Assembly: GCF_012295575.1 (NCBI RefSeq) | Contig: NZ_CP051180.1 | Span: 2,294,001-2,358,000 of the forward strand | DNA from: Ferrimonas lipolytica | GTDB lineage: Bacteria > Pseudomonadota > Gammaproteobacteria > Enterobacterales > Shewanellaceae | Direction of reading: 5' to 3' | Length of the DNA stretch: 64,000 nt | Shown here: one piece after another, positions 20,407 through 51,779 of the stretch | Position numbering within the stretch: the first letter of the stretch is position 1 | Layout: each line of letters starts with the position of its first letter | Translations under genes and position numbers: made by a program | The notes under the pieces: generated by a model | Told to the model about the DNA's origin: nothing | The model's input: only the letters and a program-made list of their open reading frames with translations | The model's database searches: none

Positions 20407-20746
20407 GCATTTCCCGGAAGTGTTAACTAGCAAATATTACGAGCTAATATTGTGTTGCTACCACTGAGTAAACCAACCACTGATGTTGTTAGCGCGGGCG
20501 TTGCCAATGGCAGCAGCGCTTGTAAAAACAGTTCGAACCGTCCACACCGCACTCACCCCGACCATCTGTCGCAACAATGCGCTGCAAACTGTCAAAAATA
20601 GGACATTATGTCCACAAGGCTAAGATCATCATCACAAAAGCAAGCCTTAGCCGGATTACTCCGTTATTTTGTCAATTTTTTAATTTAACCTGTCGGCAAA
20701 TTATAGGCGGTCACTGTACTGCCCAATTCGTCGATGGAGAGAGAGA
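20407..20746 (+). promoter_or_regulatory. leader region of the TonB/ECF operon with palindrome
   Basis: GGACATTATGTCC (20601-20613) is a perfect 6-1-6 palindrome 134 bp before the first gene. Just downstream, GGCTAAG (20619) and CTTAGCC (20646) can pair in a 7-bp stem, followed by the T-rich TTTTGTCAATTTTTTAATTT. No B12, TPP or FMN riboswitch consensus and no Fur box is visible. The region may hold an operator plus a structured leader, but this rests only on symmetry. Confidence 0.35.
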
Positions 20747-22798
20747 ATGGATATGATGTCTGGCCGCATCAGTATTATTGCGGCAGCCGTTATCATGGCA
20801 ATGCCAGTTATGGCAGAGCAAAGCACGGATTTTGGTGATATTGAAGATGTGATCGTTGTTCGCGGTGAAGCTCCGACAGCACAACAACTAGCAACCACCA
20901 GCTACACGATTGACGCCGACGCCATTGCCCAGCAAGGTGCCCTCTCTCTCGATCAGGTGCTTGCTACCGTTCCTGGTGTATTTGTTCGTACTGGCGGCCA
21001 AGGCCGACCATTAATCGATATTCGTGGCTTTAAAACCCGCCACGCCTTACTGCTGATCAACGGTGTTCCAGCCAACGCCAGTTACGATGGTCAGTTTGAT
21101 ACCCGTTCTATCCCGGCATCACGCATTGAGCGTGTAGTGGTTTCAATGGGCCCTTCGTCGTTGCTATACGGCAACGGTGGTAACGCTGGCATCATCAACG
21201 TTATCACCAAACGTGGTAACGACGATGCACCAACAGTGGCGGCACAAGTTGGCGGCGGTAACGATGGTCGCTGGTTAGCGGACGTAAGTGCGGCAACCCA
21301 AACCGATGCTACTGACTTTATGATCTCCTACAGCGGCACTGGCAGCGATGGCAGCAATATGCCTGACGACTTCGATTTCAGTGATAACGAAGACGGTGGT
21401 CGTCGAGACAACAGCGACGATGAAAACCATAAGATTTATAGCAGTGCAGGTTGGCAAGTTAACAGCGCAACGAAGTTGGCGTTAACCGTTGAGTATCAGG
21501 AGTCTGAGTGGGGGATCCCATCTTCATTGGAGGAGCTATCAGACAACAAAAGCAAATCGAAGTATGAGCGTATCGATGAGCAGAACAGCGGCGGAATTCA
21601 ACTAAGTGGCGATCATCAGCTCAACGGCAATATGGCGCTGCGAGGCTACGTTTACTACAACCAGCTCGATGAGATCGCCAACGCCTATGAAGATGGCAAC
21701 TACGAAACCATCACTGAAACCACTGATTCTCGCTCTAAGAACCAAGGTGCTAACCTACAGTTCTTGATTGAGAATGGAGCCCACCTATTTACCACCGCCT
21801 TTATTTATGAGAATCAGCGTTACCAAGCGTCGTTATGTGAGCCTACAACGATAAGCATTAGCGGTGATGGCAGCGGTGGGGGTTCTGGCGGTGGCAGTGG
21901 TTCTGGCGGTGGTGACGGTTCAGGTGGCGGCTCTGGTGATAATGACAGCAGCAACTGCAGTAACAGTAGTCATTCAATGGATCTCTATAATGTTGTTGCT
22001 GAATACCAATGGCAGCCGACTCAAAGCTACGGCGCAACCGCTGGCGCAAGTTGGCACTATAACGACATCTCAAAGGAGAGCGATTACTCCGGTTTAGTGT
22101 CTGGCTACCTGTACCTAACCGACGTCACCAAACTGAGCACCTCTGTTGCTCGTAAGGTTCGGTTTGCTACCTTGAAAAACCTGTTCGAACCGAGCAAAGG
22201 TAACGAAGATCTTGAAGCGGAAGTGACCGAGCACCTTGAAATCGGCCTAGCGCACCAGTTCAACCCGTCGAACCAAGTTGAGTTGTCGCTTTACCATAGT
22301 GATATCGATAACTACATCGAAAAAGATGAACTCAATGGCAATATCTACCGCAACTTCGCCAAGTACCGCTTCCAGGGCGTTGATGCAACCTGGCGCAACC
22401 GCGACCTATCCAAACTCGATATTGATATTGCCTACAGCTACCTCGATGCGGAAAACCGCGATCCAGAAGATTCTAGCCGTGATCAGTTGCAAAACCGCCC
22501 TAAGCATCAGATCCAAACCAGCTTTGTTGGTTACTTGCCGTGGGATATCACCACTCGTCTAGATGCTAGCTGGGTGATGGATGTGGTTGATTACTACGAA
22601 AACAAAGATAAAGAGATGGTTAAGATCGACTCTGGCGATTACACCGTAGTTGACTTAACCGTGTCACAACCACTGCCAATGAAGGGGTGGTCTTGGCAAG
22701 CAGGGATCACCAACTTACTGGACGAAGAGTACAGCCAAAGTGTTGATCTGCTGTCACCGGGGCGCGAATGGTTAGTCAGCATCAAAGCTGAGTTCTAA
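20747..22798 (+). CDS. TonB-dependent outer-membrane receptor
   Basis: A 683-residue receptor. The signal peptide (about 1-24, ending PVMA) is followed by a TonB-box-like EDVIVV (about 33-38), then the plug (LDQVLATVPGVFVRTGGQGR, IDIRGFKTRHALLLINGVPA, VVSMGPSSLLYGNGGNAGII) and a 22-strand-type barrel ending in Phe (VSIKAEF). An extracellular loop near residues 366-410 is replaced by a Gly/Ser/Asp-rich stretch, GDGSGGGSGGGSGSGGGDG and onward, bracketed by two Cys. The start has a strong GGAGAGAGAG upstream. The gap to the ECF ATPase is 2 bp, so it imports the substrate of that transporter into the periplasm. The ligand is unknown. Confidence 0.93.
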   Translation: MDMMSGRISIIAAAVIMAMPVMAEQSTDFGDIEDVIVVRGEAPTAQQLATTSYTIDADAIAQQGALSLDQVLATVPGVFVRTGGQGRPLIDIRGFKTRHALLLINGVPANASYDGQFDTRSIPASRIERVVVSMGPSSLLYGNGGNAGIINVITKRGNDDAPTVAAQVGGGNDGRWLADVSAATQTDATDFMISYSGTGSDGSNMPDDFDFSDNEDGGRRDNSDDENHKIYSSAGWQVNSATKLALTVEYQESEWGIPSSLEELSDNKSKSKYERIDEQNSGGIQLSGDHQLNGNMALRGYVYYNQLDEIANAYEDGNYETITETTDSRSKNQGANLQFLIENGAHLFTTAFIYENQRYQASLCEPTTISISGDGSGGGSGGGSGSGGGDGSGGGSGDNDSSNCSNSSHSMDLYNVVAEYQWQPTQSYGATAGASWHYNDISKESDYSGLVSGYLYLTDVTKLSTSVARKVRFATLKNLFEPSKGNEDLEAEVTEHLEIGLAHQFNPSNQVELSLYHSDIDNYIEKDELNGNIYRNFAKYRFQGVDATWRNRDLSKLDIDIAYSYLDAENRDPEDSSRDQLQNRPKHQIQTSFVGYLPWDITTRLDASWVMDVVDYYENKDKEMVKIDSGDYTVVDLTVSQPLPMKGWSWQAGITNLLDEEYSQSVDLLSPGREWLVSIKAEF

Positions 22799-22800
22799 CA

Positions 22801-24090
22801 ATGACGGTGATGTCGGTATCGCAGCTTAATGTGATACGCAATGGGGTGCCGTTATGGCGCCCCATTGATCTTTCTATTAAAGCGGGCGAACTGATATTGC
22901 TGTTGGGGGATACCGGCACGGGCAAAAGTACCTTGCTTACCGCCATGGCCGGGTTACTCAAACCGGACGGTGGTGCAATTCGCTGCAATGGACGCTGTGG
23001 TTTGGTATTACAAGATCCCTGCATTCAGCTTATTCGCGACCAAATCGGTCCCGAAGTTGCGGTATTGCTGGAGTGTCTTCAGGTACAACCGGAGCAGATG
23101 CAGGCTCGTGTTACTGCGGCGCTTAAGCTGGTGGATCTCGACTTGCCGTTAGATCAACCGACGCAAAGCCTATCCCAAGGCCAGCGTTATCGTTTGTTGA
23201 TTGCAGCCCAGCTGGTAGCCACTCCGCAACTGCTGCTACTGGATGAGCCGTGGGCACAGATGGACGATGACTCCTTTATCCAGCTACAACAAGTTCTCAA
23301 AACCTTACTGCAACAAGGCGTCAGCGTTGTAGTCAGCGAACATCAAGCTGAGCCTTGGGCTGCGCTTGCAAGCCAAACCCACCAACTAAGTGCGGAAGGG
23401 CTTAACCCACCTAAAGCCGTCAGCAGCAAGCCAATTAGGTCCGCACAGCCATCAACTGCCTCCTTAGTAAAGCTTAGCAGTGGCGAGTGCACCCTTGCAG
23501 TAGGGCAACGTAAGTTGTCGCTACCCCCATTAACATTGCATCAAGGTGAACGCGCTTTGCTTTGCGGTAGCAACGGTTGCGGCAAAAGTACCTTGTTGGG
23601 CGCCATGCTTGGTTTAACGGCTGAGATTGAAGGTGACTTCAGGTTACTGCCTGATCTTGATAGAGAGTCGGTTAAGCACCATGTTGGGCTGGTATTACAG
23701 CAACCAGCGAAACAGCTGTTTGCCACTACCGTACTGGAGGAGCTGTGTTTCTCGCAACTGCGCCAAGGGATTAGTGCAGCAGCGGCGGAAGCGGAATCGA
23801 TGGCACTGTTAGCACGGCTCAAACTGGACAATTTGGCTGAGCGTTCACCCTACACCCTCTCCTATGGGCAACAGCATCTTGTTGCCATTAGTAGTCAGCT
23901 ACTGCGTAAACCACAGCTGTTGTTACTCGATGACCCGTTTGCTGGCCTTGATCATCACAGCACTGAAGTACTGTGGCAGTTGCTGGATGAACATACTGAT
24001 AGTTGTGCCACCGTTATCGCTAGCCACAGGCCTATCGCAGGTGTGCATAGCCATTGGCAGATAGAACAGGATCGTCTTTATGTGGCCTAA
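22801..24090 (+). CDS. fused two-domain ECF transporter ATPase (EcfA-EcfA')
   Basis: A 429-residue protein with two ABC ATPase domains in one chain. Domain 1 has Walker A LLGDTGTGKST (about 36-46), signature LSQGQ and Walker B LLLLDEPW. Domain 2 has Walker A LCGSNGCGKST, signature LSYGQ and Walker B LLLLDDPF. Asp replaces the usual catalytic Glu after Walker B in domain 2, so the two sites may differ in activity. The fused layout is that of YkoD-type energy-coupling-factor modules. The gene starts 2 bp after the receptor stop and its end overlaps ecfT by 11 bp. Confidence 0.9.
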   Translation: MTVMSVSQLNVIRNGVPLWRPIDLSIKAGELILLLGDTGTGKSTLLTAMAGLLKPDGGAIRCNGRCGLVLQDPCIQLIRDQIGPEVAVLLECLQVQPEQMQARVTAALKLVDLDLPLDQPTQSLSQGQRYRLLIAAQLVATPQLLLLDEPWAQMDDDSFIQLQQVLKTLLQQGVSVVVSEHQAEPWAALASQTHQLSAEGLNPPKAVSSKPIRSAQPSTASLVKLSSGECTLAVGQRKLSLPPLTLHQGERALLCGSNGCGKSTLLGAMLGLTAEIEGDFRLLPDLDRESVKHHVGLVLQQPAKQLFATTVLEELCFSQLRQGISAAAAEAESMALLARLKLDNLAERSPYTLSYGQQHLVAISSQLLRKPQLLLLDDPFAGLDHHSTEVLWQLLDEHTDSCATVIASHRPIAGVHSHWQIEQDRLYVA

Positions 24091-24724
24091 GCAACTGCAG
24101 CCCAAGCCAGTAACATGGGTGCAGATAAAACTAGTACTAAGCCCACTTTTTGTCGCCTTAGCGTTTGCGTTACCGCCGCTGCCACTGGCTGCTTTAGCGC
24201 TACTGTTAACCTTGTTGGTGTTGCGTTCGCCCGATGGTTGCAAGCAGATGCTAAGACTGACCAAATTTATGTCAGTGCAGTTTGCGTTGGTGCTGCTGTT
24301 TTATTGCATCCGTTTTGGTTTTGATAGCTGGCCCCAAGCATTGCTTATTTCTAGCCGGCTCTATCTGGCAGTGTTGCCAGGGCTGTGGTTTTTTCTTTCC
24401 TGCCCTCAGCATTATGTGGTGCAAGCCATTAAGCCGTTTCTGTCTAACCGCAATGCGGTCGTGATTGCGGCTACCTTGGCATTACTGCCTCGGCTTACCA
24501 GCGAGGCCCGCCAGCTTTATCAATTGCAGCAGCTTCGTGGCGCTAAGATCGCTCCGCAAGATCTGTGGCGGATCGGCGCTTGGCATGATTTGGTCACCAC
24601 TGTCCTTACTCCATTGCTAATCCAACTGGTACGGCTAACCCAGCAACAAGAACTCGCGTTACGAGCTCGCGGTTATCACGACCACACCAACCCTACTCAT
24701 TACCCTATTGATGAAACCCAATGA
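24080..24724 (+). CDS. ECF transporter transmembrane component (EcfT/CbiQ family)
   Basis: A 214-residue membrane protein. Four to five hydrophobic segments precede a long cytoplasmic C-terminal region that carries the two coupling helices of T components: QLQQLRGAKI (about 148-157) and ELALRARGYH (about 193-202), corresponding to the paired Arg-Gly signatures that dock into the ATPases. It overlaps the ATPase gene by 11 bp and the next gene by 4 bp (ATGA), indicating translational coupling. With the ATPase it forms the energising module of the transporter. Confidence 0.87.
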   Translation: MWPKQLQPKPVTWVQIKLVLSPLFVALAFALPPLPLAALALLLTLLVLRSPDGCKQMLRLTKFMSVQFALVLLFYCIRFGFDSWPQALLISSRLYLAVLPGLWFFLSCPQHYVVQAIKPFLSNRNAVVIAATLALLPRLTSEARQLYQLQQLRGAKIAPQDLWRIGAWHDLVTTVLTPLLIQLVRLTQQQELALRARGYHDHTNPTHYPIDETQ

Positions 24725-25260
24725 ATAAACTCAAACTGGCCGATGCTCTGCTCATTGGCGCGCTATCTTTGCTGCTTTTGAGCTTTAAAGCCGCAGTGAA
24801 ACTGAAGCTTGGATTAAGTGGCCACACCATGTTCTTAATGGTGTTGGTGTTCCTGTTAGCCCGCGGTTTGGTGCCGGTGCGAGGCTCAATAATCTATTGC
24901 GGTTTGCTAACCGGCATACTAGCAATGCTACTTGGCATCGGTAAGGGCGGACCATTGATATTACTTAAATTCCTTCTACCTGCTGTCGGCATAGAGCTGG
25001 CCTGCTTGCTGTTGCCGTTTGCACCGTGGCATCGGGTAACCGCCATTGCTGCCGGAGCCGCAGGGCTTATTGCTTGGGTGATTAAGGGGGCCACCGAGAT
25101 GGCGCTGGCCGGTGCCGACATCGACATTATCCTCATGCAGATGGGCTGGAAATCCTTCGGCGGCGGGATCTTTACCGTGCTCGCCGCACTATGCGTGCCG
25201 TTGCTATTGCAACGACTAGCTCACCACCAACTTATTCCAACCGAGCGACAGCCCCAATGA
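24721..25260 (+). CDS. putative S component (substrate-binding membrane subunit) of the ECF transporter
   Basis: A 179-residue, very hydrophobic protein with about five to six membrane helices, the usual size and topology of S components (170-220 residues). Its position directly after EcfT with ATGA overlaps on both sides makes it the likely specificity subunit. I could not match it to the S components for thiamin, riboflavin, biotin, folate, cobalt/nickel or queuosine precursors; GHTMFLMVLVFLLARGLVPV and GGPLILLKFLLP are its most distinctive stretches. Substrate unknown. Confidence 0.65.
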   Translation: MNKLKLADALLIGALSLLLLSFKAAVKLKLGLSGHTMFLMVLVFLLARGLVPVRGSIIYCGLLTGILAMLLGIGKGGPLILLKFLLPAVGIELACLLLPFAPWHRVTAIAAGAAGLIAWVIKGATEMALAGADIDIILMQMGWKSFGGGIFTVLAALCVPLLLQRLAHHQLIPTERQPQ

Positions 25261-25982
25261 AGCTATTTATCTGTATTGATGACACCGACATTATTGGGTC
25301 GAAAGGCACCGGCGAGATCGCTGAGGAGATCGGCGCGCTGCTGCAACAAAAACAGCTAGGCCAAGCCAGCTCAGTCAGTCGTCACCAGTTGTTTGTGCAC
25401 CCAGACATTCCCTATACCTCACACAACAGTTCGATGTGTTTTGAACTAAAGACCCAAGCTGAGCATCTGCCCGCGATCACTCAATGCTGTATTGAGCATC
25501 TATTAGAGCAAAGTGCAGAAGGATCGGATCCTGGCCTCGCTATCGCCACTGAAGAGGGCTGCGACTGGCCGCGATTAATTGATTATGGCCAACAAGCCAA
25601 AAAACGGGTGCTGACCAAAGCACTGGCCTACGATCTAGCCAAACAGCTTGGGGTGCACTTATCTGAACATGGTGGCAGCGGCGACGGCATTATCGGCGCG
25701 CTAGCGGGGATTGGTTTGCGAAAATACGGCAGTGATGGCCGCCTAAAAGGTCAGATCCAACTGCCGCAGCACTGCAGCTCGATGCTAGTTGCCGAGTTAA
25801 TTGAGCAAACCGCTATCGAACAAGTACTGGATTTGGCCCATCAACCACTAAGCTCAACAGCACAAATTCAACTACAAGGTAAGATCAAAGCGGTTCGCTG
25901 GCACGGACAAAGCTGTTTACTCGTAGATAAGCAAGATGGGCTCTGGCATAACGTGGGCCGCCAGCAGTTGAAGGATTACTGA
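25257..25982 (+). CDS. TiaS-like (tRNA-Ile2 agmatinylcytidine synthetase catalytic-domain-like) protein
   Basis: A 241-residue cytoplasmic protein. The N terminus FICIDDTDIIGSKGTGEIAE and the block HGGSGDGIIGALAGIGLRKY (about 138-157) correspond to the IDDTD and G-x-GxGxxGALAAIG motifs of the ATP-using kinase-like domain of archaeal TiaS, which puts agmatine on C34 of tRNA-Ile2. The zinc ribbon of archaeal TiaS is absent. Bacteria use TilS/lysidine for that tRNA, so the domain has probably been recruited for something else, perhaps modifying the imported compound. The start is ATG 25257, overlapping the preceding stop by 4 bp. Family resemblance is good; function is unknown. Confidence 0.7.
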   Translation: MKLFICIDDTDIIGSKGTGEIAEEIGALLQQKQLGQASSVSRHQLFVHPDIPYTSHNSSMCFELKTQAEHLPAITQCCIEHLLEQSAEGSDPGLAIATEEGCDWPRLIDYGQQAKKRVLTKALAYDLAKQLGVHLSEHGGSGDGIIGALAGIGLRKYGSDGRLKGQIQLPQHCSSMLVAELIEQTAIEQVLDLAHQPLSSTAQIQLQGKIKAVRWHGQSCLLVDKQDGLWHNVGRQQLKDY

Positions 25983-26206
25983 TGATGAAGCAGTTCGTCG
26001 ACGATAACGGCAAGTGGTTATTTAGCGGTAATAGAGATGATTTGCAGTTAAGTCGAATGGTGGCGAAGGCGTGTGAGTCGTTTGCAGAAGACGATGAAGA
26101 CGAGCAAATTGACGATATAACGCGCTCCTGCTTTAACTGCGCCTATCGACGCTGGAGTGTCGACAGTTTTCACTGTCTGGCACCTAATTGCCGCACGGAC
26201 CAATGA
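25982..26206 (+). CDS. 74-residue four-cysteine protein (possible zinc ribbon)
   Basis: A small acidic protein whose C-terminal third contains C-x2-C-x11-C-x4-C (CFNCAYRRW ... FHCLAPNC), the spacing of a zinc-ribbon or a small iron-sulfur site. The central part (FAEDDEDEQIDD) is strongly acidic. It starts one base inside the stop codon of the TiaS-like gene (TGATG), so the two are translationally coupled, and it is followed by the operon terminator. Archaeal TiaS carries a zinc ribbon in the same chain; this protein could supply that part in trans. That is inference; no homologue is recognised. Confidence 0.7.
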   Translation: MMKQFVDDNGKWLFSGNRDDLQLSRMVAKACESFAEDDEDEQIDDITRSCFNCAYRRWSVDSFHCLAPNCRTDQ

Positions 26207-26207: not shown

Positions 26208-26243
26208 ATAAAAAGAGAGCTGAATTCAGCTCTCTTTTTATAG
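26208..26243. terminator. bidirectional terminator between the ECF operon and the sigma-factor gene
   Basis: A perfect palindrome, AAAAAGAGAGCTGAA and its reverse complement, 26211-26240, with A runs on the left and T runs on the right. It therefore works for the plus-strand operon ending at 26206 and for the minus-strand sigma gene ending at 26255. Confidence 0.9.
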
Positions 26244-40378: not shown

Positions 40379-41674
40379 GGTAGTGTTCAGATTTCTGTGT
40401 CATTTGCTTAAAATCAATCCAAAAGGAATAGCGAATGACCAAACCTACTTTCGACATGGAAGCCGCCATTGAGGCACTTCGCTCAGGCCAAGACCTGACC
40501 GGTAAAGATGGCATCCTGACGCCCCTCATCAAACAACTCACCGAAGCTGCCCTCAAGGCCGAGCTGGACCAGCATCTGGCTGAGGATGGCTCCAATAATC
40601 GCAAAAACGGCAAGACTCCCAAAAGGGTCAAAACCGCAGCGGGTAGCTTTGAACTCAATACACCTCGAGACCGAGACGGCACATTTGAGCCTCAGTTGGT
40701 GAAAAAGCATCAGACCCACCTGACTGATGAAATGGAACGCAAGATCATCGCTATGTTTTCGTTGGGCACTAGCTACCAAGATATCCGTGCTCATATCGCG
40801 GACATGTACGACATCGAGGTCTCTAACGGCACGATTAGCGCCATCACAGACAAGTTGCTACCCGAGCTACAGGCTTGGCGAGAACGGGATCTTGAAGCCC
40901 TGTACCCCATTGTCTGGCTTGATGCTATCCACTACAAAATCAAAGAAAATGGCCGCTACGTCACTAAAGCGATTTACACAATTCTTGCTTTGAATGTTGA
41001 GGGAAAGAAAGAGCTTTTGGGCTTATACCTGTCTGATAATGAGGGCGCCCACCACTGGCTCAGCATCCTGACCGATCTCCACAATCGTGGGATTAAAGAT
41101 ATCATCATCGCCTGCGTAGACGGCCTCAAAGGCTTCCCTGAAGCCATTGCGACTATCTTCCCGAAAACCGAAGTCCAGCTCTGCATCATCCACCAGATCC
41201 GAAACTCAATGAAGTACATTGCCTCAAAGAACCAAAAGGCCTTTATGGCTGATCTGAAATGCGTTTATAAAGCTGCTACGCTCGCCGCAGCAGAAACAGC
41301 TCTGGACGAACTGGAAGCCAAATGGGGTGAAAAATATCCCGTCGTTATCAAGTCCTGGCGAAGCAAGTGGGCGCTGCTCTCAGCGTACTTTAGATACCCG
41401 GACTACGTGCGACGAGCCATATACACCACTAATGCTGTTGAGGCCGTGCACCGCCAATTTCGGAAGCTGACCAAAACCAAAGGTGGCTTTGCCAGCGAGA
41501 ACGGTTTACTCAAGCTTCTCTACGCCGGTATATTGAAGGCGTCGGAGCGCTGGTCGCACCCCATCCAGAATTGGAATTTGACGCTGTCTCAGTTGTCGAT
41601 CCACTTTGAGGGTCGATTGGACGAATACATCGACTTGTGAATTAGATTACTGACACAGAGTTATGAACACCCTC
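40379..41674 (+). mobile_element. intact IS256-family insertion sequence with 8-bp target duplication
   Basis: 1296 bp. Ends: left GGTAGTGTTCAGATTTCTGT, right (read inward) GAGGGTGTTCATAACTCTGT, both then GTCA. It is flanked by a perfect 8-bp direct repeat CCATGGAA (40371-40378 and 41675-41682), the usual duplication size of this family. The single transposase frame is intact, so the insertion is younger than the decay of the surrounding IS3 element. Confidence 0.9.
40435..41640 (+). CDS. IS256-family transposase
   Basis: A 401-residue Mutator/IS256-type DDE transposase. After an N-terminal DNA-binding part (KAELDQHLAEDGSNNRKNGK) the catalytic acids are in context: Asp in VWLDAIHYKIKENGRYVTKA (about 158), Asp in IIACVDGLKGFPEAI (about 224) and Glu in TTNAVEAVHRQFRKLTKTKG (about 335). 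C-x-x-H is present in QLCIIHQIRNS. The start has AAAGGA eight bases upstream. The length is typical (about 400). It appears functional. Confidence 0.95.
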   Translation: MTKPTFDMEAAIEALRSGQDLTGKDGILTPLIKQLTEAALKAELDQHLAEDGSNNRKNGKTPKRVKTAAGSFELNTPRDRDGTFEPQLVKKHQTHLTDEMERKIIAMFSLGTSYQDIRAHIADMYDIEVSNGTISAITDKLLPELQAWRERDLEALYPIVWLDAIHYKIKENGRYVTKAIYTILALNVEGKKELLGLYLSDNEGAHHWLSILTDLHNRGIKDIIIACVDGLKGFPEAIATIFPKTEVQLCIIHQIRNSMKYIASKNQKAFMADLKCVYKAATLAAAETALDELEAKWGEKYPVVIKSWRSKWALLSAYFRYPDYVRRAIYTTNAVEAVHRQFRKLTKTKGGFASENGLLKLLYAGILKASERWSHPIQNWNLTLSQLSIHFEGRLDEYIDL

Positions 41675-42324
41675 CCATGGAACCACAAACGTGTGTACCG
41701 CATCTACTGCGAGCTGGCACTGGACCTAAGAATTCGTCGAAAGCGAAGACTGAAACGTAATGCGCCTGAACCATTGAAGGAGCCGGTGCGAGCAAACCAA
41801 GTTTGGTCTGTAGACTTCATGCATGACCAACTGGCTGATGGCCGCAGTTACCGTTTATTTAACGTCATTGATGATTTTCGGCGAGAAGGACTGATGAGCA
41901 AAGCTGGGTTTTCATTGCCCGCATTGCGGGTGATCCGAGCCCTAAACCAGCTGTTAGAGCAACGACCGAAACCCGCAACCATTCGATGTGATAATGGGCC
42001 AGAGTTTATCAGTGCTGAGTTCGTCAATTGGGCTAAGAGCCAAGAGATCTTGATTCAGTACATTCAGCCAGGTAAGCCTTAGCAGAACGCTTATATCGAA
42101 CGGCACAACAAGACGATGCGATACAGTTGGGTCAGCAAGCACTTGTTCGAATCGAACGAAGAGGTCCAAGGCTATGCGACTGAGTGGCTTTGGTTGTACA
42201 ATAATGAATAGCCACGCAAAGCCAATAATGGGCGACCACCATCGATGGTCACTTAGCCTCTACTTTTAACTGTGGTTAAAAAGAGGAGGACTACCAAACA
42301 AATGCTAATCATAACATCCTGAAA

Positions 42325-43038
42325 TCAAACCTTATTCATAACAACCAAAAATAAATATTTTACTAGCTTAAACTGCCTCGTAATTCTTGTTGGCTGTGAA
42401 ACTAAACGGTAAAGCCACTCTAAGTTATACTTCTGCGCCCATTGTGGTGCGCGTTTAACTCGGTCAGTAAACACATCATAAGTGCCCCCTACTCCCATAT
42501 AGAAAGCGTCAGGGTGAAATTCGCGGCACCGATTAATAAAATTCTCTTGCCGAGGTGAACCTAGTGCAACTGTTACTATTTTCGCCTGACTCCTCTTAAC
42601 TCTATCGATCAGCTCCGATTCGTTATCAAAATAACCATCACAAGCACCAACAACTTTAACGCCAAACTCATTTTTTAACTTTTCAACAGTTTGCAAGTTT
42701 ACTTCTGGTTTAGCACCAACAATAAAGACCGGAAGATTGAACGAAGCAGAACCTTTCATGAGCTCCACCCATAAATCACACCCAGGAATCCTAGCGCTAA
42801 CGCAACCACGCTTCGCCATAACTAAAGAAACACCAGCTCCATCTGGATAGCGAAAACTTGCAGACTCTAGAATGCTTTTTACATCTTCCCTTTCGTAACT
42901 TGAAACTATTTTTTCAGCGTTGACAGCAATGGCACAACCACTAACGACATCACCTTCATGTAGAATAGAATCGATAGCATGTCCCATATCATCAAATGCT
43001 GAAATTTCTAGCCCGTTAATTATACATTTATTATTCAT
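42325..43038 (-). CDS. wecG: WecG/TagA/CpsF-family glycosyltransferase (probable ManNAcA transferase)
   Basis: About 237 residues of GT family 26. Landmarks are GCAIAVNAEKIVSSYERED, FRYPDGAGVSLVMAKRG, IPGCDLWVELMKGS, VFIVGAKPEVN and VALGSPRQENFINRCREFHP followed by GVGGTYDVFTDRVKRAPQWA. WecG adds ManNAcA to GlcNAc-PP-undecaprenol; wecA, wecB and wecC are all in the window, which supports that activity. I use ATG 43038 (MNNKCIINGLEIS); it overlaps the acetyltransferase stop by 8 bp. It is the last gene of the AT-rich cassette. Confidence 0.85.
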   Translation of the reverse strand: MNNKCIINGLEISAFDDMGHAIDSILHEGDVVSGCAIAVNAEKIVSSYEREDVKSILESASFRYPDGAGVSLVMAKRGCVSARIPGCDLWVELMKGSASFNLPVFIVGAKPEVNLQTVEKLKNEFGVKVVGACDGYFDNESELIDRVKRSQAKIVTVALGSPRQENFINRCREFHPDAFYMGVGGTYDVFTDRVKRAPQWAQKYNLEWLYRLVSQPTRITRQFKLVKYLFLVVMNKV

Positions 43039-43564
43039 TCTTATGCTTTTTCTCATTTCTATATTTCAATACTTTAGCAGGCACACCGCCAACAATAGCG
43101 TAGCTTGGAACATCTTTTGTCACTAAAGAGCATGCCCCGACAACTGCCCCCCTCCCAATGGTCACTCCATGCCTTATAACTACACTTCGACCAATCCAAA
43201 CGTCATCTTCAATAATTGGAGTAAGACCAAAAGTATCTTCTTGGTCAACCATCGGAATATCTAGCCTTTCGTAGCTATGCGTACTAGAAAGTATTGCTAC
43301 GTTGGGTGCAATCATTACATTGTTGCCGATTATGGCACTTTGAATAAAAACATTTTCGTTGATCCGAACATTTTCACCCAACTTAAGCTCAGAAGCATCA
43401 GAGATATAAACCTGATTTTCAAACCTGTTTTTGGGGTGCGCACTCATGATTCCAAGCACCCGACTTAAATACCAACAACGAAGTTTACTAAATAAAGGTA
43501 GGTATCTCGAATTAGGCAGGTTATACAAAAAAACATAATAAATTGCGAGCTTTAATTTTTTCAT
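43031..43564 (-). CDS. left-handed beta-helix (hexapeptide) acetyltransferase
   Basis: A 177-residue O- or N-acetyltransferase of the hexapeptide-repeat class, using acetyl-CoA. Repeats run from about residue 55 (LKLGENVRINENVFIQSAII) to 160, with the usual WIGRSVVIRHGVTIGRGAVV and GACSLVTKDVPSYAIVGGVP AKV end. The His in SSTHSYE is the likely catalytic base. It probably decorates a sugar of the repeat unit before export. It overlaps wecG by 8 bp and is 15 bp behind the putative glycosyltransferase gene. Confidence 0.85.
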   Translation of the reverse strand: MKKLKLAIYYVFLYNLPNSRYLPLFSKLRCWYLSRVLGIMSAHPKNRFENQVYISDASELKLGENVRINENVFIQSAIIGNNVMIAPNVAILSSTHSYERLDIPMVDQEDTFGLTPIIEDDVWIGRSVVIRHGVTIGRGAVVGACSLVTKDVPSYAIVGGVPAKVLKYRNEKKHKNE

Positions 43565-43579
43565 ATGGAAATTTTAGTA

Positions 43580-44842
43580 TTATATATCCGTAATTTGAGA
43601 TGCATTAGTAATGAAAATTATATTTTCATCTTCACTACCGGTCTTCATTATGCTGTCCTCAACAACATCAAGCACATAAGTTCGACCTAGAAGCTCAAGA
43701 GCCTCAAAATGACAAGAAGAAAATATTGAAAAATGAGCCTTAGATGCGCCAATTAGCGCTAGAGTATCTTGATAGACATCTCGGTCTACAACCTTAAAAC
43801 TTTCACTTTTTACCAAAGCTGAAATTTGAGTATAGTTTTGATATTCCCTCGGGTGTGGTCGATAAAAAACAGCGTAACCTGGAAACTTTTCTATGAGACC
43901 CAAAACAAAATCAGCCACCTCTTCGTAGCAAATACCTTGCCCTGTAAAAATAAAATAGTCTTCATTTCCAGTTAAGTTAAATATCTGCTTCTTTAATATT
44001 TCACTCACTTTAGGCAAAGCACCATTAACCTCTAGTGCATCATTGGCTACAAAATTAGCTTGGCACATTTTCTTTTTCCAAAAGCTCGAAGAAAGCCTTA
44101 ATCGAGTTGGCAACATGCTACTTCGCCACAATTCACTACCACTATAATGGTAAGACGGGTGATAAGGAGCTAATAAGCCATGTTGGTACTCAAGTGTATT
44201 AAGACTCAGTTCATTTGCTGCACTAACTATTGCAGGTTTGGTATAAGCAGAGACAACTTCAACATTACTAACCCGCAACCATTTAAGTAATTTTTTATAC
44301 GCTTTTTTCTTACATTCATAGTCCAGCAAAATCGCAACAACTTCTCGCTTGGTAACACCGTACTCTTGGTTTAGTAATTCAAAAAAACTCCCTGAAATTT
44401 CAGGAACTCGAGAGTGCCAACCAAAACGCTCAATCAATATTGCCAATACCTTAATGGTAATATTTTCAAAAACAACCCCACTTTTCAAGCATACAAAAAA
44501 ACTGACAACTTCAAAATTTGAACAATGATATAATGAAAACGAATTTTTCTGCTTGGTTATTGAAACAAACTCGTCATGAATATTACCATCACTAATTGAT
44601 ATTCTAGAAAAAGCCCCAAAGTAGGCAGTTTTTTTTGTATATACCCTAGCTCTTAATAAGTTTATAAAACTCAGTAACAAAGCGACAAAAAGTGGAATGT
44701 ACGAATTGGATTTATAACGTTTATCTGTAACTCCTTTAGAATGAAGAACTATCCTAGTCATCTGATTCTTCAGCAGAGGCCAAACCTCAGACTCATTTAC
44801 TAAGTTATTATCCAAAATGTACTGCTCTATATTTTTATGCAT
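43580..44842 (-). CDS. putative glycosyltransferase of the polysaccharide locus
   Basis: A 420-residue protein with no signal peptide. Two blocks suggest a GT-B type transferase of the capsule/sialyl kind: LEYQHGLLAPYHPSYHY (about 218-234) and the C-terminal YAVFYRPHPREYQNY (about 328-342) followed by FSIFSSCHFEALELLGRTYV. These resemble nucleotide-sugar-binding motifs of capsular and polysialyl-type transferases. As the locus encodes CMP-sialic acid synthesis but no other obvious sialyltransferase, this is the best candidate for adding it. It starts 8 bp inside the end of wzy. Family assignment is tentative. Confidence 0.55.
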   Translation of the reverse strand: MHKNIEQYILDNNLVNESEVWPLLKNQMTRIVLHSKGVTDKRYKSNSYIPLFVALLLSFINLLRARVYTKKTAYFGAFSRISISDGNIHDEFVSITKQKNSFSLYHCSNFEVVSFFVCLKSGVVFENITIKVLAILIERFGWHSRVPEISGSFFELLNQEYGVTKREVVAILLDYECKKKAYKKLLKWLRVSNVEVVSAYTKPAIVSAANELSLNTLEYQHGLLAPYHPSYHYSGSELWRSSMLPTRLRLSSSFWKKKMCQANFVANDALEVNGALPKVSEILKKQIFNLTGNEDYFIFTGQGICYEEVADFVLGLIEKFPGYAVFYRPHPREYQNYTQISALVKSESFKVVDRDVYQDTLALIGASKAHFSIFSSCHFEALELLGRTYVLDVVEDSIMKTGSEDENIIFITNASQITDI

Positions 44843-46097
44843 TATTTTGCCTTGGAATAAACATAGAATTATTAGATGTAATTACACCTAGTAGAAAAAA
44901 AAGAAGTAACCCTACCATATTCCCCATAATTGGTACCATTGAACCGATCCCAACAAGCATCAAAAATGCATTAATACGGAGCAAACGAACGTGAGCAACT
45001 TGCTCAACACAACTATCTTTTTTGGAAAAAAAAGGTTGAAAAATAAAAAGCATAACAAATATAACACCAAGACCATATTCTGCGATCAATGACACAAAAA
45101 ACAAATCAAAAATAGGACCTTCGATTTGCTCCCCATATCCAGTAATAGCTTTATCTACATTAAAAAAAGCGTAGATGTCAGTATAAAACTTAGACATGAC
45201 CGTTCCATAAGTTCCAGGACCAGACCCGAATGGGAAATTATATTCAAATATTTCCATAGCATAATAAAAAATTTTATAGCGCACATAATTTTCATTAAAA
45301 TTAGCTTCTATTGACTCACCGAAGACCAACCATAAACCAGCCAAAATAACTGGTCCAATAATAATTAGGCCAGTAACTCCGAGTAATCTATTTATTCCCT
45401 TACCCTTGAAGATAATGGCGACCCAATATGCAATAAAAAGAATCACAAGCTCTTTTCTAGAAAATGTTAGAAACAGCAAGACAAAAGAAAACAATAACAG
45501 TGACCAATAAATCCTATAATTAAAGATGAAATATTTTCTCGAACCACTATCATATTTAAAAGACAGAAGTAAAATACTGTATAAGAGAAGAAAACCAGAG
45601 TATAAAACTCGAGACCCGAAAAAAGATCCTGGTGTAACACCCATAATACCACGACCATCACTAGATAGTGTGTATAATAAGTTTGGAAATAAGTAATCAA
45701 AAAAAACAAATAATGACGATAACAACAAAATTAAAGTAAGTGATTTCGTAAACTTAGCTAGCAATAATACTCTATCCATGTTGAAAGCATAAGCAATCAC
45801 AAAAAAAACAAACACATACTTTAGAGTAAAAAATGTCTGCAAAATATTTATCCATGGCAACCCACCTCTAATAATCATAAAAATAGAATATAAAAAAAGG
45901 ATCAACGATAGATAAATGAATTTACGTTTTACTGGTCTAAAAACAATAAATGTAATAAATGTAATTATAAAAAGTAATATATAAACATGTTGAAAGTAAG
46001 ATAAAAAACCCAGATTTATCAGGTTTTGCCGAGAAATGAAAAATAAAGTTAACGTAAACAACAAAAAATTTAGATAACCTTTAGATGTAAATATCAT
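44835..46097 (-). CDS. wzy: Wzy-type polysaccharide polymerase
   Basis: A 420-residue protein with 11-12 predicted membrane helices and one large periplasmic loop (about 265-320, beginning VFGESIEANFNENYVRYKIF). This topology, the low GC and the position beside wzx and wzz identify an O-unit polymerase of the O-antigen ligase/polymerase superfamily. There are no recognisable catalytic motifs, as usual for Wzy, so the call is by topology and context. It overlaps the next gene by 8 bp. Confidence 0.75.
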   Translation of the reverse strand: MIFTSKGYLNFLLFTLTLFFISRQNLINLGFLSYFQHVYILLFIITFITFIVFRPVKRKFIYLSLILFLYSIFMIIRGGLPWINILQTFFTLKYVFVFFVIAYAFNMDRVLLLAKFTKSLTLILLLSSLFVFFDYLFPNLLYTLSSDGRGIMGVTPGSFFGSRVLYSGFLLLYSILLLSFKYDSGSRKYFIFNYRIYWSLLLFSFVLLFLTFSRKELVILFIAYWVAIIFKGKGINRLLGVTGLIIIGPVILAGLWLVFGESIEANFNENYVRYKIFYYAMEIFEYNFPFGSGPGTYGTVMSKFYTDIYAFFNVDKAITGYGEQIEGPIFDLFFVSLIAEYGLGVIFVMLFIFQPFFSKKDSCVEQVAHVRLLRINAFLMLVGIGSMVPIMGNMVGLLLFFLLGVITSNNSMFIPRQNNA

Positions 46098-46158
46098 ATC
46101 GATACCAAGTATAACCTAAAGACTTATGGAGACAACAAATGTACCAAAGTCAATATTT

Positions 46159-47235
46159 TTAATTGTTAAAATAGCGGCGATTAACACGCTTAGACACCCC
46201 TGTTAGAAGCTCATAAGGAATCACTCCGGCACACCTAGCTATGTGTTCAATAGGTAAAGCTCCTCCCCATAAAACTACTTCGTCTCCCACTTTAACCTCG
46301 GAATCGTTACCAATATCGACACAAATCAAATCCATAGAAACTCGCCCAACCAAAGGGTACTCCACACCATGAATAAGTACTGGTGTGCCACTCTTTGCAC
46401 TTCTTGGATAACCATCAGCATAACCAATCCCAATAACTGCTAGATTTGTATCTTGCTCAGAAATCCAAATCCCATCGTAACCTACAGGCTCATTTTTGCA
46501 ATGTTGACGTACAGAAATAACATAAGCATTTAATGTTTGGGATGCACGTAAGCCAAAATCATAACCAATTTTATTACTGAACGGAGATACACCATATAAT
46601 GACAAGCCAATTCGCGCATGGCTTTGCTCTCTAAAGTAACCTTGTAAGAGCCCTGCTGAATTAGTTATTGATGAATTAATATCTATATTTGACACAGCGC
46701 ATTCAAACTTATCTAGTTGTAAAAGGCTTCGTTCTGAATCACTGTCAGCTGAAGAATAATGACTCAGAACTCCATTGACCTTGATATAAGGCATATCATT
46801 TAAAGCACTAAGAGTGCGACTGAGCTCATCTATGTGCAACCCTAATCGGTGCATGCCACTATCGAACTTAACCCAACAATTTAACTCACAACATGCAGGA
46901 AGAGCCCTCAAAATATCGAGCTGACTTTCAGTATGGATTACGACTGTGAGCTCATGCTCAAGGGCTTGCATTAGCTCTCTATGCGTATTTATTCCTGAAA
47001 AAACCAAAATATCTTTCTTTATTCCCGAAGCCTTTAAAGCAACTCCTTCAGAAAGACGAGCAACAGCAAAAACATTTATAGACTCTAGAGCCTGACATAC
47101 CTCGAGAGCACCATGTCCATAAGCATCAGCCTTTATTATAGCAATAAGTTCACATTCTCTATTTGTTTTTGAACTCAAAAGCATTGAATTATATTTTATT
47201 GATTCTAAGTTAATGGATAAGTAAGGTTCGGACAC
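46159..47235 (-). CDS. alr: alanine racemase inside the polysaccharide locus
   Basis: A 358-residue fold-type III PLP enzyme making D-alanine from L-alanine. The PLP Lys35 is in LIAIIKADAYGHGALEV, the catalytic Tyr in VIGIGYADGYPRS, and the substrate/PLP blocks MHRLGL, RIGLSLYGVSPF and VGRVSMDLICVDIG are present. Its base composition matches the AT-rich neighbours. The gene sits 18 bp behind wzx and ahead of wzy, an unusual place for a housekeeping enzyme. It may supply D-Ala for the glycan, perhaps used by the AsnB-like ligase two genes upstream. The enzymatic call is firm; the link is inference. Confidence 0.9.
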   Translation of the reverse strand: MSEPYLSINLESIKYNSMLLSSKTNRECELIAIIKADAYGHGALEVCQALESINVFAVARLSEGVALKASGIKKDILVFSGINTHRELMQALEHELTVVIHTESQLDILRALPACCELNCWVKFDSGMHRLGLHIDELSRTLSALNDMPYIKVNGVLSHYSSADSDSERSLLQLDKFECAVSNIDINSSITNSAGLLQGYFREQSHARIGLSLYGVSPFSNKIGYDFGLRASQTLNAYVISVRQHCKNEPVGYDGIWISEQDTNLAVIGIGYADGYPRSAKSGTPVLIHGVEYPLVGRVSMDLICVDIGNDSEVKVGDEVVLWGGALPIEHIARCAGVIPYELLTGVSKRVNRRYFNN

Positions 47236-47253
47236 AGTTGTCTATCTCTTTTG

Positions 47254-48612
47254 CTAAAATATTTTTATCTGCGTATTTAGAACCACAAAAAAGATTGCAG
47301 TTGTACTTGCCACAAAAACAAAGATAAGGCTATCTTTTAAAAGATAGTGGCGCTTCACTCTTCTATTAACCAAAGAATAAAGAATGGATGCAGCAAAAAT
47401 ACAGCTTAGCATTGTTGATAATGCCGCTCCTAAAATACCAAACTTCAATGTTAGAATATAACTTAGCGGGACGTTTAAAATTGTAGCAGATATAAACCCA
47501 AACATTTTATATTTTGCTGTCTGCTCTTCTAAAGAAAGTACATTTGTATATAGTATATACAAAGTATTAAAGAGAAAACTTAAACTGAGGACAACAAATA
47601 CATTGTAGCTAAACTCTATCTTATCACTGTATATATATTTAAAAACGAATGGCAAAATAATAATACAAAATATAAAAAACAAATAACTAACTAGCATTAA
47701 GCTCTTAGTTCTATTTTTTATTTTATCTAAAGAAAGATATCCATGCAGTGAGTATAGCTTTAACAAACTAGGCATATATGACTTATTCATGGCTAATATT
47801 ACAACCTGAATAGCCCCCGCCAATAAAAAAACAGATGTGTAATTAGCTAATTCTTTTAATGGAAGCAGAGATGTAATATATATTTTATCTATCATAGAGT
47901 TAATGACAGAGAATATACTTACAGGTAAAATTATTGTAGAGTATTTTATTAGCCTAACATAAGAATCCCTGTTAAATAAAAACACTTCACCAAAGAATCC
48001 AACCAACCCAAACACTCTAGAAACAATAATGATAAAAAACGTAAAGTTTAGCAACAATATAGAATTTAAATAAGCATCAGAACTCTCGAATAAGTAGATA
48101 GCACCGAGGCCAACAAAAAACTTTACTGCAAAAAATAATATAAACCAACAAAAATATCCAACCTTATCAAAATTAAGGCGATTGGATAATAAATATAAAT
48201 TCATAAAGTATTCAAAAAATACAATCAAGAGCATTTTTGTCATTTGATACTTTAATGAAACGACACTAAACAATAGGTTGTCATCAATTAGTGACAGCAA
48301 TATATTAACAAAAGAAAATATAATAAGGCCCGTTGTTGCGACATGCACACTATCGATAAACAACCTTTTCTTATTTAGCCCTAATTCTTGATTATAGAAT
48401 ATAGCATAAGCGGATTCACTTGATAGACTTACCATAGGAACTAATGCAGTGAGCAAAGCTAAAAAAATAGTTAGCTGTGCATACTCTGGAATACTAAGAA
48501 AATGAGATGCTGCTGGCATTAATAAAAACTGCATACATTTCACTATAATATCTGCCAAAAGATATATAACAACTGGACTAATTAACAACCCCCTAATTTT
48601 ATTATAGATCAC
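47254..48612 (-). CDS. wzx: Wzx-type lipid-linked repeat-unit flippase
   Basis: A 452-residue membrane protein with 12-14 hydrophobic helices in the MATE/PST arrangement; VIYLLADIIVKCMQFLLMPA opens the first helix. It is strongly AT-rich with many Ile, Leu and Phe. With wzy and wzz it defines a Wzx/Wzy-dependent pathway: it turns the undecaprenyl-PP-linked unit to the periplasmic side. It starts 4 bp after the AsnB-like gene, so they are coupled. Function is deduced from topology and context. Confidence 0.8.
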   Translation of the reverse strand: MIYNKIRGLLISPVVIYLLADIIVKCMQFLLMPAASHFLSIPEYAQLTIFLALLTALVPMVSLSSESAYAIFYNQELGLNKKRLFIDSVHVATTGLIIFSFVNILLSLIDDNLLFSVVSLKYQMTKMLLIVFFEYFMNLYLLSNRLNFDKVGYFCWFILFFAVKFFVGLGAIYLFESSDAYLNSILLLNFTFFIIIVSRVFGLVGFFGEVFLFNRDSYVRLIKYSTIILPVSIFSVINSMIDKIYITSLLPLKELANYTSVFLLAGAIQVVILAMNKSYMPSLLKLYSLHGYLSLDKIKNRTKSLMLVSYLFFIFCIIILPFVFKYIYSDKIEFSYNVFVVLSLSFLFNTLYILYTNVLSLEEQTAKYKMFGFISATILNVPLSYILTLKFGILGAALSTMLSCIFAASILYSLVNRRVKRHYLLKDSLIFVFVASTTAIFFVVLNTQIKIF

Positions 48613-48616
48613 AACA

Positions 48617-50290
48617 TTACATCTTTAACAAAATGGTTTGCATTTTAAGAATGTTCTGCTGAATTCCAGGGTGAACACGATGTTCTCCATAATCAAAGCT
48701 TAAGTCCAGCTTAGTTTGAATGTTTTTAGTGTCGTTATCCAATCGTAATTTCAGTTTTTTAAACTCACTAGAATTAACCCAATTCTCATAATTCATAACG
48801 CCATTCCCCCTAATAACAAAATTACCCATCGCGAATATTTTCTTTGAAACATTCGTTATTGGATTAATATTTCCAGACAGGGTAGGCTTGAAGCTTTGGC
48901 CTTGAATCGAATTTAACTCAGGTAACCTATTTGCAATAAACTCCTGAAATAACTGCCTATCTAGCAGCTCAGCTTCGTTAAATTGCTGAACTGTATCTAA
49001 GAAAAATGGTGTATAAATACTATAAGATTCCTTTTGCCCTAAAAAGCTTTCGAAAGCTCCTTTCGAATTATTTCTCCCGAGACCGAAAATTGCATAGTTC
49101 ATTAGCTTTTCAGAGTCAGAGATAGTTTCAAACTCAGTATAAAAAGTTTCAATATCAGCGATACATTCATCCAGCTCATCCTTTGTAAAAAAGTCACCAA
49201 AACCAGACGCACTTAATTTAGGCATAAAATCCAAAGCTAAACCAGTTAATGAGCTTATTGCTTTCTTTGCTTTAGCTGCTTTTGGCTTTACACCAAGTAG
49301 AGATTGATGCAATAACGTATGCTCTATAAGGGGGCTCTGTTTAATTGACTTATAGAGTGGAGATGCACCAATAATAAAACCACTAGCACCAGTGAGTAAA
49401 ACATTTGATTTTAATTCACTAACATCTACTATCTTAAAAATTTGAGAACAAACTTCAGGAGCAAGTTTTGATTCCATATTTAATTGTGTTTCAAAAGGAA
49501 TAGAGTTGTAATTTAAGGTTCGTCGCTCTAAACCAAAATGATCTGCAATTTTATTTGCGCTATTGAAATCATTAGATAGAAATAACTTCCTAGGCTTTTC
49601 CAAACCAATTGTGAAGCCTTCAATCTGCATTCCATTTTTCTTCGCGTAATATGGAATTATTCGAGAATCAAGGCCACCACTGATACCTACCGCAAAACTA
49701 GGCTCTTCCGGATTCAAAGCCCTGATTGCACCAAGCGCATTTGTAAAAGTTTCATCAATCAGATCAAGCTTGTCATCATATGAAAGTTGGTTATTAATGT
49801 AACTAAACTGCCAGTACCTTTTTGTTGTTACCGTATCCTTTGTTAAATCTATAGTCAGAATTGTAGCAGCAGGTACTGTCTTTACACCTTTCAGTATAGT
49901 CCGGTTATTTAGTCCCGTTGAAAAGACTATTTGTTGCTTAATCCCTGTTATATCAAGGTCATCAATTCCAAGTGATAAAGCATTTTTTATTTCCCAGAAA
50001 TCATCAGATATCGTTAGTACGCCTTCATTTATATAATGAAATATATTTTTCTTACCTGGTCGATCTGAGACAATTTTTACACTTCTGAACGTCGAATCGA
50101 GAACAACAATAGTAAAATCACCAACTAGTTTTTCCAAATAACGATGATTATCGTCTTGTATAGCTTTAATGACTTCAGTTTCGTTTTCTAAGTACAAACT
50201 ACCGAAAATATGGTAATAAAATACTTCATTCTTGAAGTCTACTTTCTTTGTTAGTCCGTCTTGCGACGTCTTATTTACTCTTATGATCAT
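48617..50290 (-). CDS. asparagine-synthetase-like amide ligase lacking the glutaminase cysteine
   Basis: A 557-residue protein. The C-terminal ATP-dependent synthetase domain has the PP-loop SFAVGISGGLDSRIIPYYAK (about 196-215). The N-terminal half has the fold remnants of a class II glutaminase (YLEKLVGDFTIVVLD, KIVSDRPGKKNIFHYIN), but the chain begins MIIRVNKTSQ, so the essential Cys2 is absent, together with about 20 residues usually before the first strand. It therefore probably does not use glutamine; like beta-lactam synthetase it could join another amine. In this locus the amine or acid could be D-alanine and an amino or uronic sugar. Family sure, reaction inferred. Confidence 0.75.
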   Translation of the reverse strand: MIIRVNKTSQDGLTKKVDFKNEVFYYHIFGSLYLENETEVIKAIQDDNHRYLEKLVGDFTIVVLDSTFRSVKIVSDRPGKKNIFHYINEGVLTISDDFWEIKNALSLGIDDLDITGIKQQIVFSTGLNNRTILKGVKTVPAATILTIDLTKDTVTTKRYWQFSYINNQLSYDDKLDLIDETFTNALGAIRALNPEEPSFAVGISGGLDSRIIPYYAKKNGMQIEGFTIGLEKPRKLFLSNDFNSANKIADHFGLERRTLNYNSIPFETQLNMESKLAPEVCSQIFKIVDVSELKSNVLLTGASGFIIGASPLYKSIKQSPLIEHTLLHQSLLGVKPKAAKAKKAISSLTGLALDFMPKLSASGFGDFFTKDELDECIADIETFYTEFETISDSEKLMNYAIFGLGRNNSKGAFESFLGQKESYSIYTPFFLDTVQQFNEAELLDRQLFQEFIANRLPELNSIQGQSFKPTLSGNINPITNVSKKIFAMGNFVIRGNGVMNYENWVNSSEFKKLKLRLDNDTKNIQTKLDLSFDYGEHRVHPGIQQNILKMQTILLKM

Positions 50291-51764: not shown

Positions 51765-51779
51765 GATAAATTCCTAACC

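Follow-up and report, generated by a model that had tools for sequence, protein, structure and literature searches.

The window analysed here, a 64,000-nucleotide stretch of the Ferrimonas lipolytica genome (4.13 Mb, single contig), contains six plus-strand genes at 20747-26206 that form one operon, as confirmed by reading the sequence and its open reading frames directly. In order, the operon encodes a TonB receptor, a fused energy-coupling factor (ECF) ATPase (EcfA), EcfT, an S-component-like (S-like) membrane protein, a protein that resembles archaeal TiaS, and a small cysteine protein that we call CYS4 (Table 1). The original prediction had described a six-gene, same-strand TonB/ECF import operon closed by a terminator; all six genes are there, their families agree, and a perfect palindrome, which is likely to be a bidirectional terminator, closes the set. 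The palindrome was not listed by the hairpin scan because it has no loop of three bases or more. The description of the junctions stood in part: the ecfT/ecfS and ecfS/TiaS-like genes do overlap by 4 bp (ATGA), and a 2-bp gap, the only one in the operon, separates the TonB gene from ecfA, but ecfA and ecfT overlap by 11 bp and the TiaS-like gene and cys4 by 1 bp.

Table 1. Features of the operon and its flanks, in window coordinates.
Feature	Position	Strand	Basis
Putative operator GGACATTATGTCC, perfect dyad	20601..20613	.	starts 146 bp ahead of the TonB start codon
TonB-dependent outer-membrane receptor, 683 aa	20747..22798	+	PF07715, 1.4e-23, 83.9 bits (cut-off 23.9)
EcfA, fused double ATPase, 429 aa	22801..24090	+	two PF00005 stretches, 3.2e-49
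EcfT, 214 aa	24080..24724	+	PF02361 (CbiQ/EcfT), 27.2 bits, just above the cut-off of 25
S-component-like membrane protein, 179 aa	24721..25260	+	PF09819, 20.1 bits, under the cut-off of 25.2
TiaS-like kinase-domain protein, 241 aa	25257..25982	+	weak TiaS family matches, PDB profile, AF2 model and Foldseek
CYS4, four-Cys acidic partner protein, 74 aa	25982..26206	+	conserved Cys and acidic residues, recurrence across loci
Perfect palindrome, likely bidirectional terminator	26210..26239	.	sequence read directly

The receptor has the plug domain of TonB-dependent receptors, and every match between it and the receptor families, TIGR01779 included, lay under the cut-off. EcfA scored 210.9 bits against TIGR01166, narrowly below the cut-off of 211.8, and a search of NCBIfam with EcfT gave no match; the ATPase pair (here fused) and the T component that an ECF importer requires are both present. 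The S-like protein has seven hydrophobic windows, some of them overlapping, and matched no vitamin S component above cut-off. The PF09819 scores of its counterparts in two related loci (L104 and L077; loci and genomes from the survey below carry the prefixes L and G) were 22.2 and 20.9 bits, also short of the cut-off, and those of L031 and L106 had no match to that family. The residues G74-K75-G76-G77-P78 are invariant in six aligned S-like sequences, that of the window among them. Uptake of cobalamin, cobalt or nickel was considered because of the CbiQ, PF09819 and BtuB-type matches, and was set aside: neither the window nor 34 loci that were scanned contained a cobalamin riboswitch at gathering score.

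The arrangement recurs in other genomes. Among 60 close-relative genomes, 15 (including that of the window) had a TiaS-like gene, and all 14 of the other carriers had ecfA, ecfT, ecfS and CYS4 alongside it, with a TonB match in 11. In the Shewanella/Ferrimonas family the gene was present in 94 of 152 genomes, three of which (G448, G484 and G499) had broken copies, and a class-wide draw of 369 genomes held it in four, the window's own genome counted. A scan of named genomes gave 361 relatives of the TiaS-like gene; the best 80, weighted to close relatives, were taken as loci. These divide into 54 from the family and 26 from outside it (Oceanospirillum, Firmicutes, Desulfuromonadales/Geobacter, Kiritimatiellota and others), with 24 genomes standing for the 26 because L097 and L098 share genomes with L090 and L092. 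All 54 family loci have ecfA, ecfT, ecfS and the TiaS-like gene, and 49 have a TonB match. CYS4 was recognised in 72 of the 80 loci (54/54 family, 18/26 outside), of which 52 satisfied a strict motif and 20 a looser pattern applied downstream of the TiaS-like gene; both patterns require conserved cysteines, so that its conservation is partly by construction. In L016, CYS4 is placed before ecfA. The neighbourhood is thus not peculiar to this strain, and the small protein does travel with the TiaS-like one as had been proposed; the operon is not a chance assembly, because the order of its genes is seen again in further genera and phyla.

Outside the family the importer varies. Five of the 26 loci have ecfA, ecfT and ecfS, 13 have a FecCD permease with its ATPase, and Oceanospirillum (L031) has TonB, ecfA and ecfS matches. 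When 38 TiaS-like proteins were placed on a tree, the types of importer did not fall into single groups, and ECF and FecCD each required three or more changes on branches with good support. We read this, from the sequences, as two unrelated importers having probably been swapped around one TiaS-like/CYS4 pair. Importer type mostly tracks phylum, an exception being Desulfosporosinus (L104), a Gram-positive bacterium with ECF genes. A relative on a plasmid of the haloarchaeon Natribaculum longum, 36% identical across 56% of the query, is divergent from a set of FecCD, ATPase and binding-protein genes, the ATPase having been named by reading.

RNA elements give an indication of the nutrient. The riboswitch for the molybdenum and tungsten cofactors (Moco/Tuco; RF01055) was found at gathering score in 12 of the 26 outside loci, in 16 copies. 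Eleven of these loci have a riboswitch upstream of, and on the same strand as, the transporter or TiaS-like genes; the single copy in L049 falls between the TiaS-like gene and a gene for AOR, leading the latter. L100 and L108 each have one riboswitch directly before the TiaS-like gene, which is followed by CYS4, and another ahead of the ECF genes. The P3 hairpin is missing from 14 of the 16 copies (six by alignment, eight by eye), and Regulski et al. (2008, PMC2408646) proposed that RNAs of this class without P3 sense the tungsten cofactor. By alignment, both riboswitches of L104 carry P3. The host genome has a single RF01055 copy, with P3, which precedes moaA.

Neighbouring genes point in the same direction. 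Six of the 26 outside loci (L049, L055, L067, L077, L091 and L100) have Mo/W genes nearby: AOR, MoeA-PBP, MOSC, MOT1 and TupA-like or SBP_bac_11 binding proteins by Pfam, and MoeA, MogA, MobB, MoaA/MoaC-like proteins and a ModE-like HTH_1 protein partly or mostly by reading. In two of four Shewanella regions (G018 and G033) a tupABC-mobA-mobB/moeA-moaA set accompanies the operon, with the tup genes 7-8 kb upstream of it. MobA (in G018), MobB/MoeA and MoaA exceeded their NCBIfam cut-offs there, while TupA (222.5 and 196.5 bits, cut-off 400) and TupB (180.9 bits, cut-off 320, in G018 only) stayed below theirs and TupC was named by reading. In a third region, G540, the operon has modE-modABC and moa-modABC (mostly by reading) on its two sides, at distances of 16-21 kb. 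The FecCD-type binding protein of L055 found 4ovk first and HI_1472 (3psa, 3psh) second in a search of the PDB; we take HI_1472 to be MolA, a binder of molybdate and tungstate.

Two further observations concern these neighbourhoods. A sigma-54 response regulator and a histidine kinase adjoin the tup genes and the operon in L034 (2-3235), L129 (677-4255) and L131 (7925-11465), and a relative of that kinase is present in six of the 80 loci within the stretch covered; S. oneidensis SO4718 is tabulated as a sigma-54 regulator for tungstate (molybdate) transport in PMC2667191. Several Firmicutes versions begin with surface proteins like the Big_5 Ig-like protein of L055, beside which lies an S-layer-domain protein (L052 5480, L055 1890-5888, L083 2934, L094 4994 and L099 1021-5931); these may perhaps be a capture device for the ligand.

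The association extends to whole genomes. AOR is encoded by 23 of the 24 outside carrier genomes, against a background of 5/14 control genomes that are not a matched set. For tests within the family, the carriers from the 152-genome set were mapped onto 148 genomes with G477, G484 and G508 dropped, leaving 91 carriers and 57 non-carriers; the tests on AOR assume that its search drew the same 148 genomes as the search for ModA. On these figures, which take each genome separately and uncorrected for shared ancestry, AOR is found in 30/91 carriers and 4/57 non-carriers (Fisher p 2e-4). At least two ModA-type binding proteins were counted in 72/91 family carriers and 13/57 non-carriers. In the host itself, one AOR-family gene (L126, G000:C1:1893621-1896495) lies behind a gene for a ferredoxin-like protein with a TAT-type start, a pair that we take to resemble E. 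coli ydhV/ydhY.

Taken together, the genomic link between this system and Mo/W cofactor metabolism is strong, and we conclude that the operon probably encodes a high-affinity importer whose role is tied to metabolism of the tungsten cofactor and perhaps of the molybdenum cofactor. A number of observations weigh against this conclusion. RF01055 is absent from the window's own operon in the riboswitch scan, from all eight Shewanella/Ferrimonas loci scanned and from 14 of the 26 outside loci, including L106, which has the window's gene order; a riboswitch upstream of the operon is therefore a feature of 11 of the 26 outside loci and not of the window. By eye, the rest of the 64-kb window holds no Mo/W gene, and the tup genes were not in the stretch read in two of the four Shewanella regions (12 kb in G429; G540). 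Seven of the 26 outside loci are without a complete importer, and CYS4 was recognised by neither the strict nor the looser motif in eight of the 80 loci. AOR is missing from Oceanospirillum and from 61/91 family carriers; the unmatched AOR controls and the uncorrected ancestry in the family counts belong here too. AOR as sole client in the family was rejected on the figure of 61/91. ModA, finally, is present in 146/148 family genomes, so the system is dispensable for basic molybdate supply, and a role for the operon as a replacement for ModABC was rejected.

Some of these same data bear on whether the importer is instead specific for molybdenum, or unselective. Such a preference would fit the P3 of both L104 riboswitches, the presence of MOT1 and ModE-like genes near the pair in L055 and L091, and the family carriers that lack AOR; the preponderance of P3-less riboswitches, the near-constant presence of AOR in the outside genomes, the tup genes beside two Shewanella operons and a ModA that is already almost universal in the family all argue for tungsten, and we regard the molybdenum alternative as quite unlikely.

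Processing of the ligand is predicted to involve the TiaS-like protein. The best family match of this protein was to methanogenesis marker 11 (TIGR03280; 2.8e-11, 43.1 bits against a cut-off of 255.8), over model positions 134-283 of 292 only. TiaS itself (NF040849) matched at 1.5e-8 (33.7 bits, cut-off 600) over model positions 1-152 of 422, and PF22641 (TiaS_TCKD) scored 15.2 bits, under its cut-off of 27. A profile search of the PDB returned 3u02, 3au7, 4rvz and 3amt at about 2e-4, all of them TiaS by entry title. The residues D8, D9, T10, D11 and T18 were in register with TiaS in the two alignments shown and are invariant in all 38 aligned TiaS-like rows; Thr18 is presumably the catalytic residue. 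The AlphaFold2 (AF2) model has a pLDDT of 93.1, and its nine best Foldseek matches in the PDB are all TiaS entries (3amu at 5.4e-11; 4rvz over 157 columns at 2.5 A), with PII-type proteins following from E 7e-4. From the profile, conserved-residue and structural results together it therefore follows that the fold is TiaS-like, and the original prediction of a true TiaS-type domain is upheld.

The likeness is tight over 153-157 columns (2.5-2.8 A) and loose over 191-214 columns (6.7-10.5 A), the 252-residue TiaS chain 3u02 aligning over 209-214 columns at about 10 A, and sequence matches to TiaS end at residue 155 of the window protein. The kinase-domain (TCKD) fold, the IDDTD motif and Thr18 of TiaS are present. 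The RNA-binding domains and zinc ribbon that TiaS carries on the same chain of some 420 residues are not found in the 241 here, the NF040849 cut-off and the full-length cut-off for methanogenesis marker 11 are not reached, and TilS has not been replaced, its gene being present in the host genome (G000:C1:2425058-2425606, 165.9 bits, cut-off 93.6). Membership of TiaS proper is not supported, and the enzyme very probably has a job other than the archaeal tRNA modification; a role on tRNA-Ile2 is disfavoured because TilS is present and the TiaS match stops where it does, and on those grounds a tRNA role was rejected as the principal explanation.

The TiaS-like family has some variant members. Syntrophomonas loci have a second TiaS-like gene (L090 9957-10706, L109 6913-7674 and L092 9757-10506) in which IDDTD has become IDDSR or IDDSL and the IPYTSHN motif is altered, and L109 has a third copy with IDDTD intact; judged by these motifs, the altered copies are possibly an inactive partner paralog. 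A short TiaS-like fragment lies ahead of the operon's riboswitch in Thermincola (L055 1001-1369), and a distant TiaS-like gene (L120 1441-2178) is found on the 3.8-kb Pimelobacter simplex plasmid pC-N39 together with two other annotated genes, both hypothetical.

The CYS4 protein of the window reads C-x2-C-x11-C-x4-C as originally described; the last cysteine is not conserved among 24 aligned relatives, and the conserved pattern is a different one, with C31, D37, E39, D40, E41, C50, N52, C53, R56, W58 and C65 present in 24/24 rows. Selection of these rows used a motif requiring C50, C53 and C65 and most of the invariant residues, C31 not always among them, so only C31 and the missing last cysteine are independent findings. 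The structure model is of low confidence (pLDDT 73) and had no match in the PDB below E 8. CYS4 may bind a metal or a cluster.

These features of the pair bear on the ligand proposed in the original prediction, an amine or nucleoside-like compound; a bacterial TiaS whose zinc ribbon is a separate protein would activate it, possibly in the service of tRNA. Such a scheme would accommodate the TiaS kinase fold with its IDDTD and Thr18, and the small cysteine protein beside the TiaS-like gene in every family locus. It sits badly with the presence of TilS, the end of the TiaS match at residue 155 and a CYS4 whose cysteine pattern differs and whose model resembles nothing in the PDB, and the Moco/Tuco context extends over several phyla and includes Shewanella. 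The amine or nucleoside ligand is unsupported because that context is one of molybdenum and tungsten, and we think the scheme very improbable.

For the high-affinity Mo/W import system that we favour, the following mechanism may be envisaged. A scarce W/Mo ligand, most likely a bound or complexed metal oxyanion, would cross the outer membrane through the TonB receptor and would then pass the inner membrane through the ECF module, for which a FecCD permease, an ATPase and an HI_1472-like binding protein would substitute in most Gram-positive relatives. The TiaS-type kinase domain and CYS4, as its metal- or cluster-binding partner, would use ATP on the imported ligand for its release, activation or hand-over, in the service of molybdopterin-type cofactor assembly. 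A bound or complexed ligand is favoured because a TonB receptor is used with FecCD or ECF carriers; a free oxyanion is possible. What the ligand is, which way it is transported, how it reacts and whether CYS4 binds metal are all matters of inference in this scheme, and tungstate or molybdate uptake by the system is likewise a prediction made from sequence.

The main rival is cofactor salvage, in which a pterin (molybdopterin, Moco/Tuco or a dephosphorylated product) would be imported and then re-phosphorylated or activated by the TiaS-type kinase, as salvage kinases do for vitamins brought in by ECF systems. TonB with FecCD or ECF is an importer type for cobalamin-sized ligands, and the kinase-domain fold and the cofactor-sensing riboswitches of the relatives would also be at home in such a pathway. 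Against it stands pterin synthesis by the carriers themselves: MoaA was above cut-off in 21 of the 24 outside carrier genomes, with partial matches in G555 and G565 and only weak ones in G551, and no cofactor auxotroph was found among these 24 carriers. The L055 binding protein, the one FecCD-type example compared, is moreover nearer to HI_1472 (1.1e-23) than to the B12-binding protein (2.9e-4). Salvage of this kind is on balance unlikely, and in its purely auxotrophic form it was rejected as unsupported. Returning to metal uptake, we also put forward, tentatively and as somewhat less likely true than not, a broader idea: that the TiaS-like/CYS4 pair may be an undescribed tungsten-cofactor enzyme of the TiaS fold that acts on a metal- or pterin-containing small molecule in place of tRNA and is served by interchangeable importers, with methanogenesis marker 11 as a relative in a similar Mo/W role.

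Control of the operon in Shewanella and Ferrimonas may involve a DNA site in place of an RNA one. Within 450 bp before the TonB gene, 35 of 53 operons, the window's included, have the dyad GGACA-N3-TGTCC with at most one mismatch; 16 matches are exact, 19 have one mismatch and 26 of the 35 lie at -145 to -155. Single-base shuffles reached this in 0.8% of cases, a figure that is not a probability because the upstream sequences are related. The 53 regions comprise 48 from the family, which account for all 35 matches, and five from outside (L031, L077, L100, L106 and L108), which have three to four mismatches. Across the whole genome of 4.13 Mb the flanked form WGGACANNNTGTCCW has a single copy, before this operon, and about one is expected by chance; weight is therefore placed on the conservation of the dyad and not on its uniqueness. 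With one mismatch allowed, 1.3 dyads are expected by chance per 64 kb, and G540 has one exact copy elsewhere, inside an efflux-pump gene. No ModE-type box stood out among the shared words and dyads, and GGACA-N3-TGTCC did; this conserved dyad is a candidate operator.

Elsewhere in the window, a surface polysaccharide cluster at about 42325-57706 includes NeuA/NeuB/NeuC-like genes (of the sialic or legionaminic acid type, by eye) and is adjoined by transposase-like genes at 40435-42082. A tandem array at 59152-59501, with a 26-bp unit in 13.4 copies and 88% matches, is flanked by two genes identified by eye, one of chain-length type and a large one of outer-membrane type.

With relatives in Firmicutes, Geobacter relatives, Kiritimatiellota, Oceanospirillum, Shewanella and Ferrimonas, and a more distant one in haloarchaea, the system offers a testable non-tRNA role for an enzyme of the TiaS fold, and a starting point for work on methanogenesis marker 11, an orphan marker of methanogens. 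To our knowledge few systems for tungsten uptake are known, and none is based on TonB or ECF. In the accessible portions of the open-access literature, including PMC13119186, PMC3543383, PMC2408646, PMC2667191 and PMC3400609, we found no system of this composition, in agreement with the original prediction. The nearest published hint found there is a remark that TonB channels in Pelobacter lie near molybdopterin-responsive riboswitches, with metal transport suggested (PMC3543383). Within those portions, importers and riboswitch are of known kinds, and it is the combination, and the TiaS-like/CYS4 pair, for which no description was found.

TonB/ECF systems for vitamins and metals also place the receptor, the fused ATPase, T and S in one operon; unlike them, the operon of the window adds the TiaS-like protein and CYS4 and has relatives in a Mo/W context. 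TupABC shares the nutrient that we propose, and its genes lie near the operon in two Shewanella, but it is a classical ABC importer with neither TonB nor a TiaS-like protein. Most Firmicutes versions resemble the MolABC-type (FecCD) importer of Haemophilus influenzae, presumably a molybdate/tungstate system, in having a permease, an ATPase and a class III binding protein related to HI_1472, whereas the window version uses TonB and ECF; the TiaS-like gene accompanies both importers. Archaeal TiaS (3amt, 3amu, 4rvz) has in common with the window protein the N-terminal kinase fold, IDDTD and Thr18, but it is far longer (about 420 residues in 4rvz) and the context here is one of Mo/W cofactors. 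Methanogenesis marker 11 shares only its C-terminal half with the TiaS-like protein, which is bacterial and is without the N-terminal half.

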